From positions 1-64,000 of the forward strand of contig CAIOVE010000018.1 in the NCBI GenBank assembly GCA_903861645.1: a stretch of DNA of 64,000 nucleotides, given 5' to 3'. Under the pieces are notes generated by a model. The model saw nothing but the letters and a program-made list of their open reading frames with translations. It did no database searches and had not been told where the DNA came from. The position numbers were made by a program, and so were the translations under genes. Position 1 is the stretch's first letter; every line of letters starts with the position of its first letter. This document shows positions 40,136 through 45,430 of the stretch, piece by piece. This DNA comes from an uncultured Hyphomicrobiales bacterium (GTDB taxonomy: Bacteria > Pseudomonadota > Alphaproteobacteria > Rhizobiales > Beijerinckiaceae).

Positions 40136-40341
40136 GAGCGGCAATCCTTCCCAAAATGCGTGAAATGACGCCATCCCGGCGCTTGAAAAAGCCGCGCCAA
40201 CGGCATGACACAGGATGGTCAGCAAACCATGTGCCACGCCGCCAGGCGACCGTCGCGATACTGGAAAAAATCCTTCACGCCGCCGTCGTAACGCCCGCCT
40301 ACATCGCCTCGTCATCACGAACGATTCGATGGGACAGGCTC

Positions 40342-41601
40342 ATGGCGGTATCGCGCGGCGCGCAAATGGTTCAACGCACCACCGTCGCCGGCCTCGCCGA
40401 CGCGGTGCATCGTGGCGCGCCGCTGTCGCGCGAGGGCATCCTCGAACGCCTGTTCACGCTGGCCTTTCGCGGCCTTGTCTATCCGCAAATCTGGGAAGAC
40501 CCGGTCGTCGACATGGCGGCGCTGAACCTTGGCCCGAGGGACCGGGTGATCACCATCGCGTCGGGCGGCTGCAACGCGCTGAGCTATCTCGTCGCCGACC
40601 CCGCCCGAGTCACCGCCGTCGATCTCAATGGCGCGCATGTCGCATTGACGCGCCTGAAACTGGCCGCCGCCCAATGGCTGCCCGATTACAAGAGCTTCCG
40701 CCTCTTCTTCGCCAACGCGGCGAGCCCGGAAAACGTGGCCGCCTACGATCGCCATCTGCGCCCCGTGCTCGATCCCGTCACGCGTGACTATTGGGACGCG
40801 CGCGGCCCGCTTGGCCGCCGGCGCATCGAGATGTTCGCGCGCGGCTTCTACAATCACGGGCTGCTCGGCCGCTTCATCGGCGCCGGCCATCTGATCGGTC
40901 GCCTTTATGGCGCTAACCCCGCGATCATGCTGACCGCGCGGAATCGCGACGAGCAGCGCGCGCTGTTCGAACGCCATATCGCGCCGGTGTTCGAGCGTCC
41001 GACGATGCGCTGGTTGTTGCGCCAGCCCGCCTCGCTTTACGGCCTCGGCATCCCACCGGCGCAGTATCGCGCGCTCGCCAGCGACGACGACAGGGGCATC
41101 GGCGCCGTGCTGCGCCGCCGGCTTGAAAAACTGTGCTGCGATTTCGATCTGCGCGACAACTATTTCGCCTGGCAGGCCTTTGGCCGCGGATACGCGCCCG
41201 ACGACAACGCCTCGCTGCCGCCCTATCTCGAACGAGACAATTTCGAGACGGTTCGCGCGCGCGCCGGCCGGGTTTCCGTTGTCCATGGCTCGATGACGGC
41301 GACCCTGCGCGACCTGCCCGCCGACGCGCTCGACGCCTACGTGCTGCTCGACGCGCAGGACTGGATGAACGACGACGACCTGACCGCGCTCTGGTCGGAA
41401 ATAACGCGCACGGCGCGGCCCGGTGCGCGCGTGATTTTCCGCACCGCCGCGGATGAGCGCCTCCTGCCGGGCCGCGTGCCCGACGCGATCCTGAATTGCT
41501 GGTCCCATGACGAGGCGCGTTGCCGCGAGCTCGACGCGCGCGACCGCTCCTCTATTTACGGCGCGTTCCATCTCCATACGCTGACGGACGCCGCTCGATG
41601 A
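40342..41601 (+). CDS. btaA: BtaA: S-adenosylmethionine:diacylglycerol 3-amino-3-carboxypropyl transferase (DUF3419)
   Basis: 419 residues from the ATG at 40342; an ATG at 40366 is also possible. DUF3419 landmarks: FRGLVYPQIWEDPVVDMAAL, the SAM-binding-like RVITIASGGCNALSYLVADP with AVDLNGAHVALTRLKLAAAQ, then FARGFYNHGLLGRFIGAGH and the C-terminal YVLLDAQDWMNDDDLTALWS. BtaA moves the aminocarboxypropyl group of SAM onto diacylglycerol, the first step of betaine lipid (DGTS) synthesis. The stop overlaps the btaB start (ATGA). In relatives this pair is induced by phosphate starvation; I see no convincing Pho box upstream. Confidence 0.9.
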   Translation: MAVSRGAQMVQRTTVAGLADAVHRGAPLSREGILERLFTLAFRGLVYPQIWEDPVVDMAALNLGPRDRVITIASGGCNALSYLVADPARVTAVDLNGAHVALTRLKLAAAQWLPDYKSFRLFFANAASPENVAAYDRHLRPVLDPVTRDYWDARGPLGRRRIEMFARGFYNHGLLGRFIGAGHLIGRLYGANPAIMLTARNRDEQRALFERHIAPVFERPTMRWLLRQPASLYGLGIPPAQYRALASDDDRGIGAVLRRRLEKLCCDFDLRDNYFAWQAFGRGYAPDDNASLPPYLERDNFETVRARAGRVSVVHGSMTATLRDLPADALDAYVLLDAQDWMNDDDLTALWSEITRTARPGARVIFRTAADERLLPGRVPDAILNCWSHDEARCRELDARDRSSIYGAFHLHTLTDAAR

Positions 41602-42335
41602 ACGACGCCGCGAGCCATATGGATCGCATGTATCGTCATCAGCGGCACTTCTACGACGCGACGCGCAAATTCTACCTTTTGGGCCGCGATGGCCTGATCC
41701 GGGATCTTCGTCCGCCGCCCGGTGGCGGCGTGCTTGAAATCGGCTGCGGCACGGCGCGCAATCTCGTGCTCGCCGCGCGCGCCTACCCGACCGCGCGCCT
41801 GCATGGCGTCGATATCTCCGAGGAAATGCTGACCACCGCGCGCCAGACGATCGCGCGCGAAAATCTCGTCGACCGCGTGCGCGTCGCCCAGGGCGACGCG
41901 ACGGATTTCGATCCCGAGGCCCTGTTCGGCGTCGCCACCTTCGATCGCGTTTTCGTTTCCTACGCCCTGTCGATGATCCCGCCCTGGCAAGCCGCGCTTG
42001 ATCACGCCGCGCGGCTCGTCGCGCCCGGCGGCTCCCTGCACATCGTCGATTTCGGCGATTTCGAGCGGCTGCCAAGCCTGTTCGGCCTTGGCCTGCGGCG
42101 CTGGCTCAAGACGTTCTCGGTGACGCCGCGCGTCGAACTGGACGCCGAGCTTTCGCGCGCCTGTGACCGCCGCGCCCTTTCCAAGCAGGTCGAAAAACGC
42201 TTTCGCGGCTATGCGATTCACGCGGTCGCGCGCGCGAGGCCCATTGGTGGAGACGACGCACATGGACGCGACGCTCGGCGTGACGAGACAGCGATTGTCG
42301 CGGGCGCCAGCCGGGCGCAGGGCGCCGGCGCCTGA
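41598..42335 (+). CDS. btaB: BtaB: diacylglyceryl-homoserine N-methyltransferase
   Basis: 245 residues from the ATG at 41598. The SAM-binding motif LEIGCGTARNL is at about residues 46-56. MYRHQRHFYDATRKFYLLGR at the N-terminus and FVSYALSMIPPWQAALDHA in the middle are typical of BtaB. It trimethylates the homoserine headgroup made by BtaA, giving the betaine lipid DGTS. The last 25 codons overlap the next glycosyltransferase gene by 74 bases, so the C-terminal tail after HAVARARP may be unconserved. Confidence 0.88.
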   Translation: MNDAASHMDRMYRHQRHFYDATRKFYLLGRDGLIRDLRPPPGGGVLEIGCGTARNLVLAARAYPTARLHGVDISEEMLTTARQTIARENLVDRVRVAQGDATDFDPEALFGVATFDRVFVSYALSMIPPWQAALDHAARLVAPGGSLHIVDFGDFERLPSLFGLGLRRWLKTFSVTPRVELDAELSRACDRRALSKQVEKRFRGYAIHAVARARPIGGDDAHGRDARRDETAIVAGASRAQGAGA

Positions 42336-43380
42336 GGCCGATCGTCCACCGCGCATTCTGATCGCGACGGACGCCTACAGGCCACAGGTCAATGGCGTCG
42401 CGCGCACGCTTGAATGGCTGGCGGAAGAGGCGACCGCGCTCGGCGCGGAAATCGTGATGCTCACGCCCGAGCGGTTTCCGACAATTCCCGCGCCCAGTTA
42501 TCCCGCCTTGCCGCTGGCGCTCGCCACGCCCGCGGCGATCGCCCGCGAGATCGAACGGCATCGCCCCGACGCGGTGCATATCGCGACGGAGGGACCGATC
42601 GGCTTTCTCGCGCGTCGCCACTGCCGCGCGACGGGCCGGCCCTTCACGACGTGCTATCACACGCGCTTTCCCGAATATCTCGCCGCGCGCTGGCCGATCC
42701 CGTTGTCGTGGAGTTACGCCGCGTTGCGCCGCTTTCATAACGCGGCGGCCGCGACGATGGTGTCGACGCCCGCCCTCAAGGCCGAGCTGGAATCCCGCGG
42801 TTTCAACAAGCTGGTCTTGTGGCGGCGCGGCATTCCGCTGGCGCGCTTCACCGGGGACGTCGGTCCGCGGCATGACTGGCCGCGGCCGGCGTTTCTCTAT
42901 GTCGGACGCGTCGCGGTGGAGAAAAACCTGGAAGCGTTTCTCGACCTCGATCTGCCCGGAACAAAAATCGTCGTTGGCGACGGACCGGCGCGCGCGGGTT
43001 TCGAGCAGCGTTACCAAAACGCCATTTTCACGGGACGTCTTGACGGCGTCGAACTGGCGCGCGCCTACGCCAGCGCCGACGCCTTCGTGTTTCCGAGCCT
43101 CACCGACACGTTCGGCCTCGTCATGCTCGAAGCCATGGCCGCGGGCCTTCCCGTCGCGGCCTTTCCGGTGACCGGACCGCGCGACGTCGTCGGCGATTCC
43201 GGCTGTGGCGTGCTCGACACCGACTTGCGCAAGGCGGCGCTGGCGGCGCTGGACATTCCACGCGACCGATGCCGGGCGCACGCCGCGCGCCACTCCATGC
43301 GCGAAAGCGCGCGCGGCTTTCTCGACAATATCGCGACCGCGATCGGCGTTCGCGCGGCGAGTCTTCAAGCCGTGGGCTGA
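42262..43380 (+). CDS. GT4 family glycosyltransferase, SQD2/lipid-glycosyltransferase-like
   Basis: 372 residues from the ATG at 42262, with GGAG 9 bases upstream and a 74-base overlap with btaB. N-terminal RILIATDAYRPQVNGVARTL is the acceptor-domain glycine-rich loop. VGRVAVEKNLEAFLD and IVVGDGPARAGFEQRYQ belong to the donor domain, and SLTDTFGLVMLEAMAAGLP is the retaining GT4 motif in the form seen in SQD2-like lipid glycosyltransferases. No membrane helix is evident, consistent with a peripheral enzyme. Context with btaAB suggests it glycosylates diacylglycerol (inference). Stop region overlaps the convergent phosphoesterase gene by 16 bases. Confidence 0.82.
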   Translation: MDATLGVTRQRLSRAPAGRRAPAPEADRPPRILIATDAYRPQVNGVARTLEWLAEEATALGAEIVMLTPERFPTIPAPSYPALPLALATPAAIAREIERHRPDAVHIATEGPIGFLARRHCRATGRPFTTCYHTRFPEYLAARWPIPLSWSYAALRRFHNAAAATMVSTPALKAELESRGFNKLVLWRRGIPLARFTGDVGPRHDWPRPAFLYVGRVAVEKNLEAFLDLDLPGTKIVVGDGPARAGFEQRYQNAIFTGRLDGVELARAYASADAFVFPSLTDTFGLVMLEAMAAGLPVAAFPVTGPRDVVGDSGCGVLDTDLRKAALAALDIPRDRCRAHAARHSMRESARGFLDNIATAIGVRAASLQAVG

Positions 43381-44183
43381 AGCGCCACGACCACCAGACG
43401 CGCGGCCGTCTCGTCGCGCGCGACGACCTCGTCCCAGCGCACGAGTTCGAGCCGACCATCGAAATGCTCGACGATGGCTGTGCGCGATTCGACCCAGTCG
43501 CCACAGTTCATGTAGAAAATCGGACCCATCTGACGCGCCGCCGCGTGGTGGATGTGTCCGCAGATCACGACCTGCGCGCCCTGATGGCGCGCGTCGGCGA
43601 CGACGGCGTCCTCGAAGGCGCTGATGAAATTGACGGCCTTCTTGACCTTCGCCTTCGCCGCGGCGGAGAACGACCAGTACGGCAGGTTGAGCCAGCGCCG
43701 CGCCACGTTGATATAGCGGTTGATGAAGATGGCGAAGTCGTAGGCCCAGTCGCCCAGATGCGCGAGCCATTTCATGTTGCGGACAACGGTGTCGAACTTG
43801 TCGCCATGCAGGATCAGCGCGCGGCGACCGTCCTTCAGCTCGCAGATCGCTTCCTCGACGATTTCGATGCCGCCGAAGCTGTCGCCGCAATAGTCGCGCA
43901 GGAATTCGTCATGATTGCCCGGCACGTAGACAATGCGCGCGCCCTTGCGCGCCTTGCGCAAGAGCTTTTGCAAAACGACATTGTGCGCGGGCGGCCAGTG
44001 CCACGCGGCCTTGAGTCGCCATCCATCGATGATGTCGCCGACGAGATAGATCGTCTCGGCGTCATAGTGCTTGAGAAAGTCAAGCAAGGCGGCCGCCTGC
44101 GAGCCGCGCGTGCCCAGATGCACGTCGGAAATAAAGAGCGTGTTCACGCGCTCCGTCGATGTTGTATCGGTCACGTCAGCCAT
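43365..44183 (-). CDS. Calcineurin-like phosphoesterase, PlcP / LpxH-like
   Basis: 272 residues. Metal ligands are evident: Asp20 and His22 (FISDVHLGTRG), Asp49 (VGDIIDG), Asn89 and His90 (GNHDEFLRDY), a later His in LILHGDKFD and the pair in VVICGHIHH. Databases usually label such proteins UDP-2,3-diacylglucosamine hydrolase. A related group, PlcP, is a phospholipase C that cuts phosphatidylcholine/ethanolamine under phosphate starvation. The neighbours (btaAB, two lipid glycosyltransferases) strongly favour PlcP, which would supply diacylglycerol. It is convergent with the GT4 gene and divergent from the GT21 gene. Confidence 0.8.
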   Translation of the reverse strand: MADVTDTTSTERVNTLFISDVHLGTRGSQAAALLDFLKHYDAETIYLVGDIIDGWRLKAAWHWPPAHNVVLQKLLRKARKGARIVYVPGNHDEFLRDYCGDSFGGIEIVEEAICELKDGRRALILHGDKFDTVVRNMKWLAHLGDWAYDFAIFINRYINVARRWLNLPYWSFSAAAKAKVKKAVNFISAFEDAVVADARHQGAQVVICGHIHHAAARQMGPIFYMNCGDWVESRTAIVEHFDGRLELVRWDEVVARDETAARLVVVALQPTA

Positions 44184-44293
44184 CCGATTTCATGATCTTC
44201 GTCCGTGCCATGCCTGATTCACGTCAAGGTTTGATGACGGAATGGATACGACGTCGTCATATGTTCGACATGCGCGCGGCCTAATGCCCGCGC

Positions 44294-45430
44294 ATGGACA
44301 TTTACGATTCGGCGATGATCCTCGCGGCGGCTCTCGCGCTGGCGCATTTTCTGAGCATCGCGCTCGCGGCCTGGCGATGCAGGCCGGCGCAAGGCCTGGC
44401 GATCGCGCCCGCTGACGCGCCGGGGGTCACGCTTGTTCGCCCGCTGCGCGGCATCGAAAGCCACACGCGCGAAACCCTCGCCGCCGCGCTGCGCCTGACC
44501 TATCCAACGCATGAGGTTTTATTTTGCGTGGCGGACGGGAATGACCCGGTCGTTCCGCTGGTTCGCGCCGCCATGGCCGAGCGTCCCGATGTCGACGCGC
44601 GCCTGCTGATCGGCGCCGACCGCATCGGCGCCAATCCCAAGCTGAACAACATGGCGAAGGGTTGGCGCGAGGCGAAATACGACTGGATCGGCTTCGCCGA
44701 CAGCAATCTGCTGACGCCCGTCGATTACATCGAGCGCTTGATGGCGACGTGGCGACCGGGCACCGGCGCGGTCTCCGCGCCACCGGCCGGGTCCGACCCG
44801 ACCGGCTTCTGGGGCGCGTTTGAATGCGCCTTCCTCAATACATTCGAGGCGCGCTGGCAATACGCCGTGGACACGCTGGGCCACGGCTTCTGTCAGGGGA
44901 AAACACTGTTCGTTCATCGCTCGCTGCTGGGCGCGCGCGGCCTCGCGCCGCTCGCCGAGGAACCAGCGGAGGACGCGGCGCTGACGCGCGTTGTGCAATC
45001 GCAGGGCTTGCGGGCGCGGCTTGTGTCGCCGCCGTTTCCGCAACCGCTCGGCGCGCGCAAGCCGCTGGAGGTCTGGGCGCGACAATTGCGCTGGGCGCGC
45101 CTGCGCCGCGCGACGTTTCCCCTGCATTACGCGCCGGAAATCCTGCTGGGCTACGTCCCGGCCGCGCTGGCGCTGGCGATTGGCGCTTATGGTCGAGACT
45201 GGTCGATCGCCGGCGCGCTGGGCGCGTTGTTTGTCGTCTGGTACGGCGCCGAGGCTTTGTTGGCGGCCATCGCCCGCTGGCCGCTGTCGCTCGCCTCGCT
45301 CCCCTCGTGGATTCTGCGCGACCTGATCATGCCGGCGCTCTGGTGCGCGGCCTGGGCGGGCGACGGCTTTTCGTGGCATGGCGCCACGCTGACCGCGAGC
45401 GACCCCGGCCGCGAAGCGCAAGCGCGCTGA
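44294..45430 (+). CDS. GT21 family glycosyltransferase (ceramide/diacylglycerol glucosyltransferase-like)
   Basis: 378 residues. One N-terminal helix and two or three C-terminal helices (about 280-350) anchor it in the membrane. The GT21 signature D1-D2-D3-(Q/R)xxRW is complete: FCVADGND, GFADSNLL, EEPAEDAALTR and RQLRWARLRR. Eukaryotic members make glucosylceramide. The Agrobacterium Agt enzyme of this family makes glucosyl- and glucuronosyl-diacylglycerol in phosphate-starved cells. The location next to the PlcP-like gene fits the Agt role (inference). No strong ribosome site precedes the ATG at 44294. Confidence 0.85.
   Translation: MDIYDSAMILAAALALAHFLSIALAAWRCRPAQGLAIAPADAPGVTLVRPLRGIESHTRETLAAALRLTYPTHEVLFCVADGNDPVVPLVRAAMAERPDVDARLLIGADRIGANPKLNNMAKGWREAKYDWIGFADSNLLTPVDYIERLMATWRPGTGAVSAPPAGSDPTGFWGAFECAFLNTFEARWQYAVDTLGHGFCQGKTLFVHRSLLGARGLAPLAEEPAEDAALTRVVQSQGLRARLVSPPFPQPLGARKPLEVWARQLRWARLRRATFPLHYAPEILLGYVPAALALAIGAYGRDWSIAGALGALFVVWYGAEALLAAIARWPLSLASLPSWILRDLIMPALWCAAWAGDGFSWHGATLTASDPGREAQAR

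Follow-up and report, generated by a model that had tools for sequence, protein, structure and literature searches.

A probable phosphate-starvation lipid-remodelling island in a genus of Beijerinckiaceae, with betaine lipid and glycolipid genes gathered around plcP

The biochemistry and genetics of PlcP, Agt, BtaAB and Pgt have been published for several Proteobacteria (PMC4796936, PMC9239053, PMC8528852, PMC3972451). In marine Alphaproteobacteria, a 2015 study described plcP beside btaAB (type 1), beside agt (type 2) and beside other glycosyltransferases (types 3 and 5), together with Pho boxes, the loss of DGTS on deletion of plcP and a SAR11 agt that was active when placed in E. coli (PMC4796936). 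Pseudomonas aeruginosa carries a plcP-agt1 pair (PMC8528852), and similar work concerns plcP-agt of Methylosinus trichosporium (PMC9239053). Among the rhizobia, PlcP, BtaAB, Agt and Pgt have been studied in S. meliloti, A. tumefaciens and M. loti; A. tumefaciens has all of these activities, encoded by genes with tags lying apart (atu1649, atu2119-2120, atu2297; PMC3972451). PlcP belongs to the LpxH2 metallophosphoesterases, which have a His in place of the Arg of LpxH and a different insertion (PMC5016852, PMC3087551). The function of this class is given as unknown in the lipid A literature and is supplied by the papers on PlcP.

The window analysed here is a 64 kb stretch of one contig (G000:C18) from a host assembly of 4.18 Mb in 108 contigs, estimated to be 100% complete. 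It contains five adjoining genes at 40342-45430, as given in the initial annotation, all of which were found at these coordinates:

40342..41601, + strand: btaA, predicted SAM:diacylglycerol 3-amino-3-carboxypropyltransferase (PF11899/DUF3419, E=9.6e-109)
41598..42335, + strand: btaB, predicted N-methyltransferase making DGTS (class I methyltransferase Pfam families)
42262..43380, + strand: agt-type GT4, predicted to act on UDP-sugar and diacylglycerol (PF13692/PF13439)
43365..44183, - strand: plcP (LpxH2 class), predicted intracellular phospholipase C, a calcineurin-like metallophosphoesterase
44294..45430, + strand: GT21 of the Pgt/ceramide-glucosyltransferase type (PF13506, E=1.3e-44)

The btaA and btaB genes overlap by 4 bp, and the 3' end of btaB overlaps the start of the GT4 gene, for which ATG at 42262 is the likely start codon within a longest ORF beginning at 42163. 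The GT4 and plcP genes are convergent with 3' ends overlapping by 16 bp, and plcP and the GT21 gene are divergent with a 110-bp intergenic region between them. Given these overlaps and strands, of which that of the phosphoesterase was not stated in the initial annotation, the five genes do not form one operon and are probably organised in three transcription units, btaA-btaB-GT4, plcP and GT21. Between 42230 and 42335, btaB extends about 30 codons beyond its homology into the GT4 start, which suggests coupled translation or the loss of a stop codon.

The island shares its enzymes, inferred pathway, putative Pho boxes and close gene neighbourhood with the marine types 1 and 2. The marine types, however, join plcP to a single branch, betaine or glycolipid, and place plcP upstream of agt (PMC4796936), whereas the window has both branches and GT21, with plcP convergent to agt. 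Identity to the P. aeruginosa pair (PMC8528852) is approximately 52% for the window PlcP and 51% for its GT4, yet the P. aeruginosa plcP neighbourhood is without btaAB and GT21. The scattered lipid genes of A. tumefaciens also differ from this arrangement, as do those of S. meliloti Ak57, in which plcP and btaAB are approximately 390 kb apart. The description of the compact gene set as notable was overstated, since a 2015 study had reported plcP-btaAB and plcP-agt clusters (PMC4796936) and clusters of plcP with other glycosyltransferases are likewise already published. What is added is a genus that often has both branches together, and a plcP turned to face agt. The locus adds a Beijerinckiaceae genus to the range of a well-documented phosphate-saving pathway, and here the betaine and glycolipid branches lie within 5 kb.

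The phosphoesterase had been proposed to be a phospholipase C that is usually misnamed as LpxH-like. Its assignment to the PlcP type is borne out by the tree, a diagnostic His residue and the score against the LpxH model. The protein scores 51.2 bits against NCBIfam TIGR01854 (50.4 in the genome search) and does not reach the cut-off of 190. Across 150 genomes of the phylum, a wide gap separates PlcP-like proteins (50 bits and below) from LpxH (137 and above), and nine of these genomes carry one of each. When 32 PlcP-type and 31 LpxH proteins are aligned, the metal ligands D20, H22, D50, N90, H126, H210 and H212 are invariant in all 63 sequences. The residue following the metal-binding Asn is His in 32/32 PlcP-type proteins and Arg in 31/31 LpxH proteins, and two positions past the Asn the PlcP type has Glu or Asp where LpxH has Phe. 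The window protein (P0004) accordingly reads GNHDE, as opposed to GNRDF (Asn-Arg-Asp-Phe) in all 31 LpxH proteins. In LpxH, the phosphate of lipid X is bound by this Arg, which is reportedly peculiar to LpxH (PMC5016852). The phylogeny places the phosphoesterase apart from LpxH in a clade with 100/100 support that includes Sinorhizobium and Pseudomonas plcP, these references being orthologues picked by identity and gene order and not accession-matched to SMc00171/PA3219. The predicted fold has a mean pLDDT of 77 and is weak in the helical insertion; LpxH provides the nearest solved structures, as expected because PlcP and LpxH are sister families. The phosphoesterase is therefore classed as PlcP and not LpxH, with a predicted phospholipase activity. 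LpxH was ruled out by the tree, the diagnostic residue and the absence of the gene from sister genomes that encode lipid A synthesis. The remark on misnaming also holds, as nearly all annotated plasmid matches carry the label 'UDP-2,3-diacylglucosamine diphosphatase', and the locus provides a clean case for renaming alphaproteobacterial 'LpxH' calls as PlcP.

The proposed betaine lipid synthesis is encoded in standard form, with a DUF3419 protein (BtaA) followed by a SAM methyltransferase (BtaB). The btaA product is 54% identical to an S. meliloti homologue whose gene is itself followed by a methyltransferase gene, and the btaB product is 50% identical over 215 aa to that of the gene immediately following btaA in S. 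meliloti. The betaine branch appears to be optional, because several sister genomes have plcP without btaAB. Two candidate diacylglycerol glycosyltransferases had also been named, and this stands for the GT4, whereas the acceptor of the GT21 is the least certain part. The GT4 contains GRVAVEKN at 217, FPSLTDTFG at 279 and YHT, with a catalytic-type His, at 134, corresponding to the GRVAxEKN and FPSxTDTFG motifs and catalytic His of the Agt group (PMC8231724). With its 51% identity to the glycosyltransferase adjoining plcP in P. aeruginosa, it is an Agt-type enzyme predicted to use UDP-glucose or UDP-glucuronate and diacylglycerol. The GT21 is the single strong GT21 of the host genome and is approximately 48-50% identical to rhizobial GT21s. 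It fits the Pgt/ceramide-glucosyltransferase group. HpnI was rejected as its identity, with 161 bits against the HpnI equivalog model and a cut-off of 310.

Linkage of these genes was compared within the genus at 30 plcP loci. Of these, 23 have the GT4 beside plcP, 16 have GT21 and 12 have btaAB, with variable order and strand, and all five genes occur together in four (the window, G010, G017 and G020). The dctA, Hsp70-like and SIP genes on the flanks are not conserved near plcP in the other genus loci and were ruled out as island members. The limits of the island, and a grouping that is not due to chance clustering, follow from this pattern, because the five genes recur in reshuffled form beside plcP and the flanks do not. 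That one set of genes has been brought together repeatedly is good evidence that they function jointly. Beyond the genus, plcP-agt-btaA-btaB stand in consecutive order in Pseudaminobacter manganicus (L122). Among 80 loci from named Hyphomicrobiales, 55 have a GT4 homologue downstream of plcP in the same orientation, and a P. aeruginosa record brings the number to 56.

A search for PhoB motifs with a trained matrix had been recommended. A generic Pho-box consensus was significant at p<0.05 (by shuffling) in 18 of 39 plcP upstream regions of relatives and not significant in the plcP upstream region of the window (p=0.20). Because the generic consensus gave no significance on the window alone, a matrix was derived from relatives, using 35 of their plcP upstream regions and leaving out the window's own clade. 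Its consensus is cTGTCACaAAAcTGAGAc, an 11-bp direct repeat located mostly 50-105 bp upstream of plcP. Three candidate sites were identified in the island promoter regions:

40250..40267, + strand: weak Pho-box-like site CCGTCGCGATACTGGAAA upstream of btaA, score 10.8
44223..44240, - strand: Pho-box-like site CCGTCATCAAACCTTGAC, 57 bp upstream of plcP, score 12.7
44254..44271, + strand: second Pho-box-like site TCGTCATATGTTCGACAT, facing GT21, score 11.6

Among the approximately 128,000 positions of the window, and with rankings that intergenic base composition may help, the plcP site is second (per-region p ~0.006), the GT21-facing site sixth and the btaA site seventh (per-region p ~0.02). 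The search thus returned sites in both promoter regions, conserved in relatives and degenerate in the window as in the rest of its clade. These sites support shared Pho-type control of the island promoters and are not proof of it.

Taken with the gene identities by homology, the separation of PlcP from LpxH and the conserved linkage, the conserved Pho-box-like sites make the island very probably a phosphate-starvation lipid-remodelling module, with predicted activities and lipid products, putative phosphate control and a presumed GT21 acceptor. PhoB would most likely turn on btaA-btaB-agt, plcP and GT21 together. PlcP would remove the phospho-headgroup from phospholipids of the PE/PC type, leaving diacylglycerol in the membrane, and the freed phosphate would be salvaged. 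BtaA would then transfer the homoserine group of SAM onto diacylglycerol, and three methylations by BtaB would give the betaine lipid DGTS. Agt (the GT4) and GT21 would add glucose, glucuronic acid or galactose to diacylglycerol to form monoglycosyl and possibly diglycosyl lipids.

The phosphate control and the GT21 acceptor each admit another explanation. The degenerate state of the Pho-box-like sites in the window would suit a set of constitutive membrane-lipid genes without phosphate control. This is improbable given that a correctly structured box precedes plcP in most relatives, at about -50 to -105, and that three of the seven best sites in the 64 kb window fall in the two island promoter regions. 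More weight is due to the idea that GT21 is a ceramide glucosyltransferase or another sphingolipid or hopanoid enzyme, which would leave four of the five genes in diacylglycerol remodelling. GT21 might glycosylate ceramide or another lipid because its closest annotated homologues carry the name ceramide glucosyltransferase; HpnI is its best curated model, though far under the cut-off, and Caulobacter makes glycosphingolipids under phosphate starvation (PMC6445935). This remains the less likely assignment, as the tight linkage of GT21 to plcP in 16 of the 30 genus loci fits a diacylglycerol acceptor, as does the position of a Fuscovulum GT21 beside an LpxH-annotated PlcP relative, and the rhizobial Pgt enzymes are GT21s that favour diacylglycerol over ceramide (PMC3972451, PMC8231724).

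A further explanation returns to lipid A and makes the phosphoesterase a UDP-2,3-diacylglucosamine hydrolase replacing LpxI/LpxH, either with incidental lipid-gene neighbours or in a dual role. The gene is the sole LpxH-like gene of the host genome, and the host has no LpxI yet retains lpxD-fabZ-lpxA-lpxB; the closest solved structures are also those of LpxH. The lack of LpxI extends to all 37 genomes of the genus, 35 of which have LpxB, and to 17 of 41 genera of the family in the sample searched. In genomes lacking LpxI, only 0-40 bp separate lpxA from lpxB, against approximately 900 bp otherwise; the two genes abut in all twelve loci read (L069 6116-8064, which is the host's own, L070-L073 and L288-L294). 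Being the only such gene was thus half of what would have told against the initial annotation; the other half, grouping with true LpxH, was not found, as the protein is without the LpxH Arg and is placed outside the LpxH clade. Moreover, three genomes of the genus (G033, 100% complete; G004, 95%; G036, 92%) and two of the family (G064 and G072, both 100%) have LpxB with neither LpxI nor any match to the phosphoesterase or the LpxH model. Close plcP orthologues also share an operon with agt across many further Hyphomicrobiales families, several of which have LpxI as well, and P. aeruginosa LpxH2 is cited, in passages of PMC6286764 and PMC3087551, as having failed to complement an lpxH mutant. 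Replacement of LpxI/LpxH by the phosphoesterase is accordingly considered very improbable. Since sister genomes have lpxA-lpxB without LpxI, PlcP or LpxH, the lipid A enzyme that is missing is unlikely to be PlcP. The lineage probably uses another hydrolase for UDP-2,3-diacylglucosamine, and this frees the window phosphoesterase to be PlcP. The specific proposal that PlcP of LpxI-less Beijerinckiaceae doubles as this hydrolase, coupling lipid A synthesis to phosphate-starvation lipid turnover, deserves hardly any credence. A further lipid A hydrolase is suggested by such a lineage, which keeps lpxA-lpxB but lacks both LpxI and LpxH and in some cases PlcP too.

The host genome also encodes a calcineurin-like phosphoesterase of approximately 300 aa (G000:C66:111539-112198; L104 6330-7211) that is shared by at least ten genus members. 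As a substitute for LpxI it shows no anticorrelation with LpxI, because the LpxI-positive G048 has a 48% homologue.

The plcP and btaAB genes of S. meliloti, described as chromosomal in the literature, are present in a 3.7 Mb record that bears the label S. meliloti pSymB (CP090106.1; L114, L285), and this replicon label may be wrong. One genome of the genus, G020, has two copies of the island with differing gene order (L223 on G020:C274 and L212 on G020:C120), one of them with an apparently split GT4; these may reflect assembly mixing or a real duplication. The plasmid pRsa of Fuscovulum blasticum contains an operon (L287 4036-7262) in which a distant PlcP-like gene and a GT21 annotated as 'ceramide glucosyltransferase' are accompanied by genes for a VTT-domain protein and a further glycosyltransferase.
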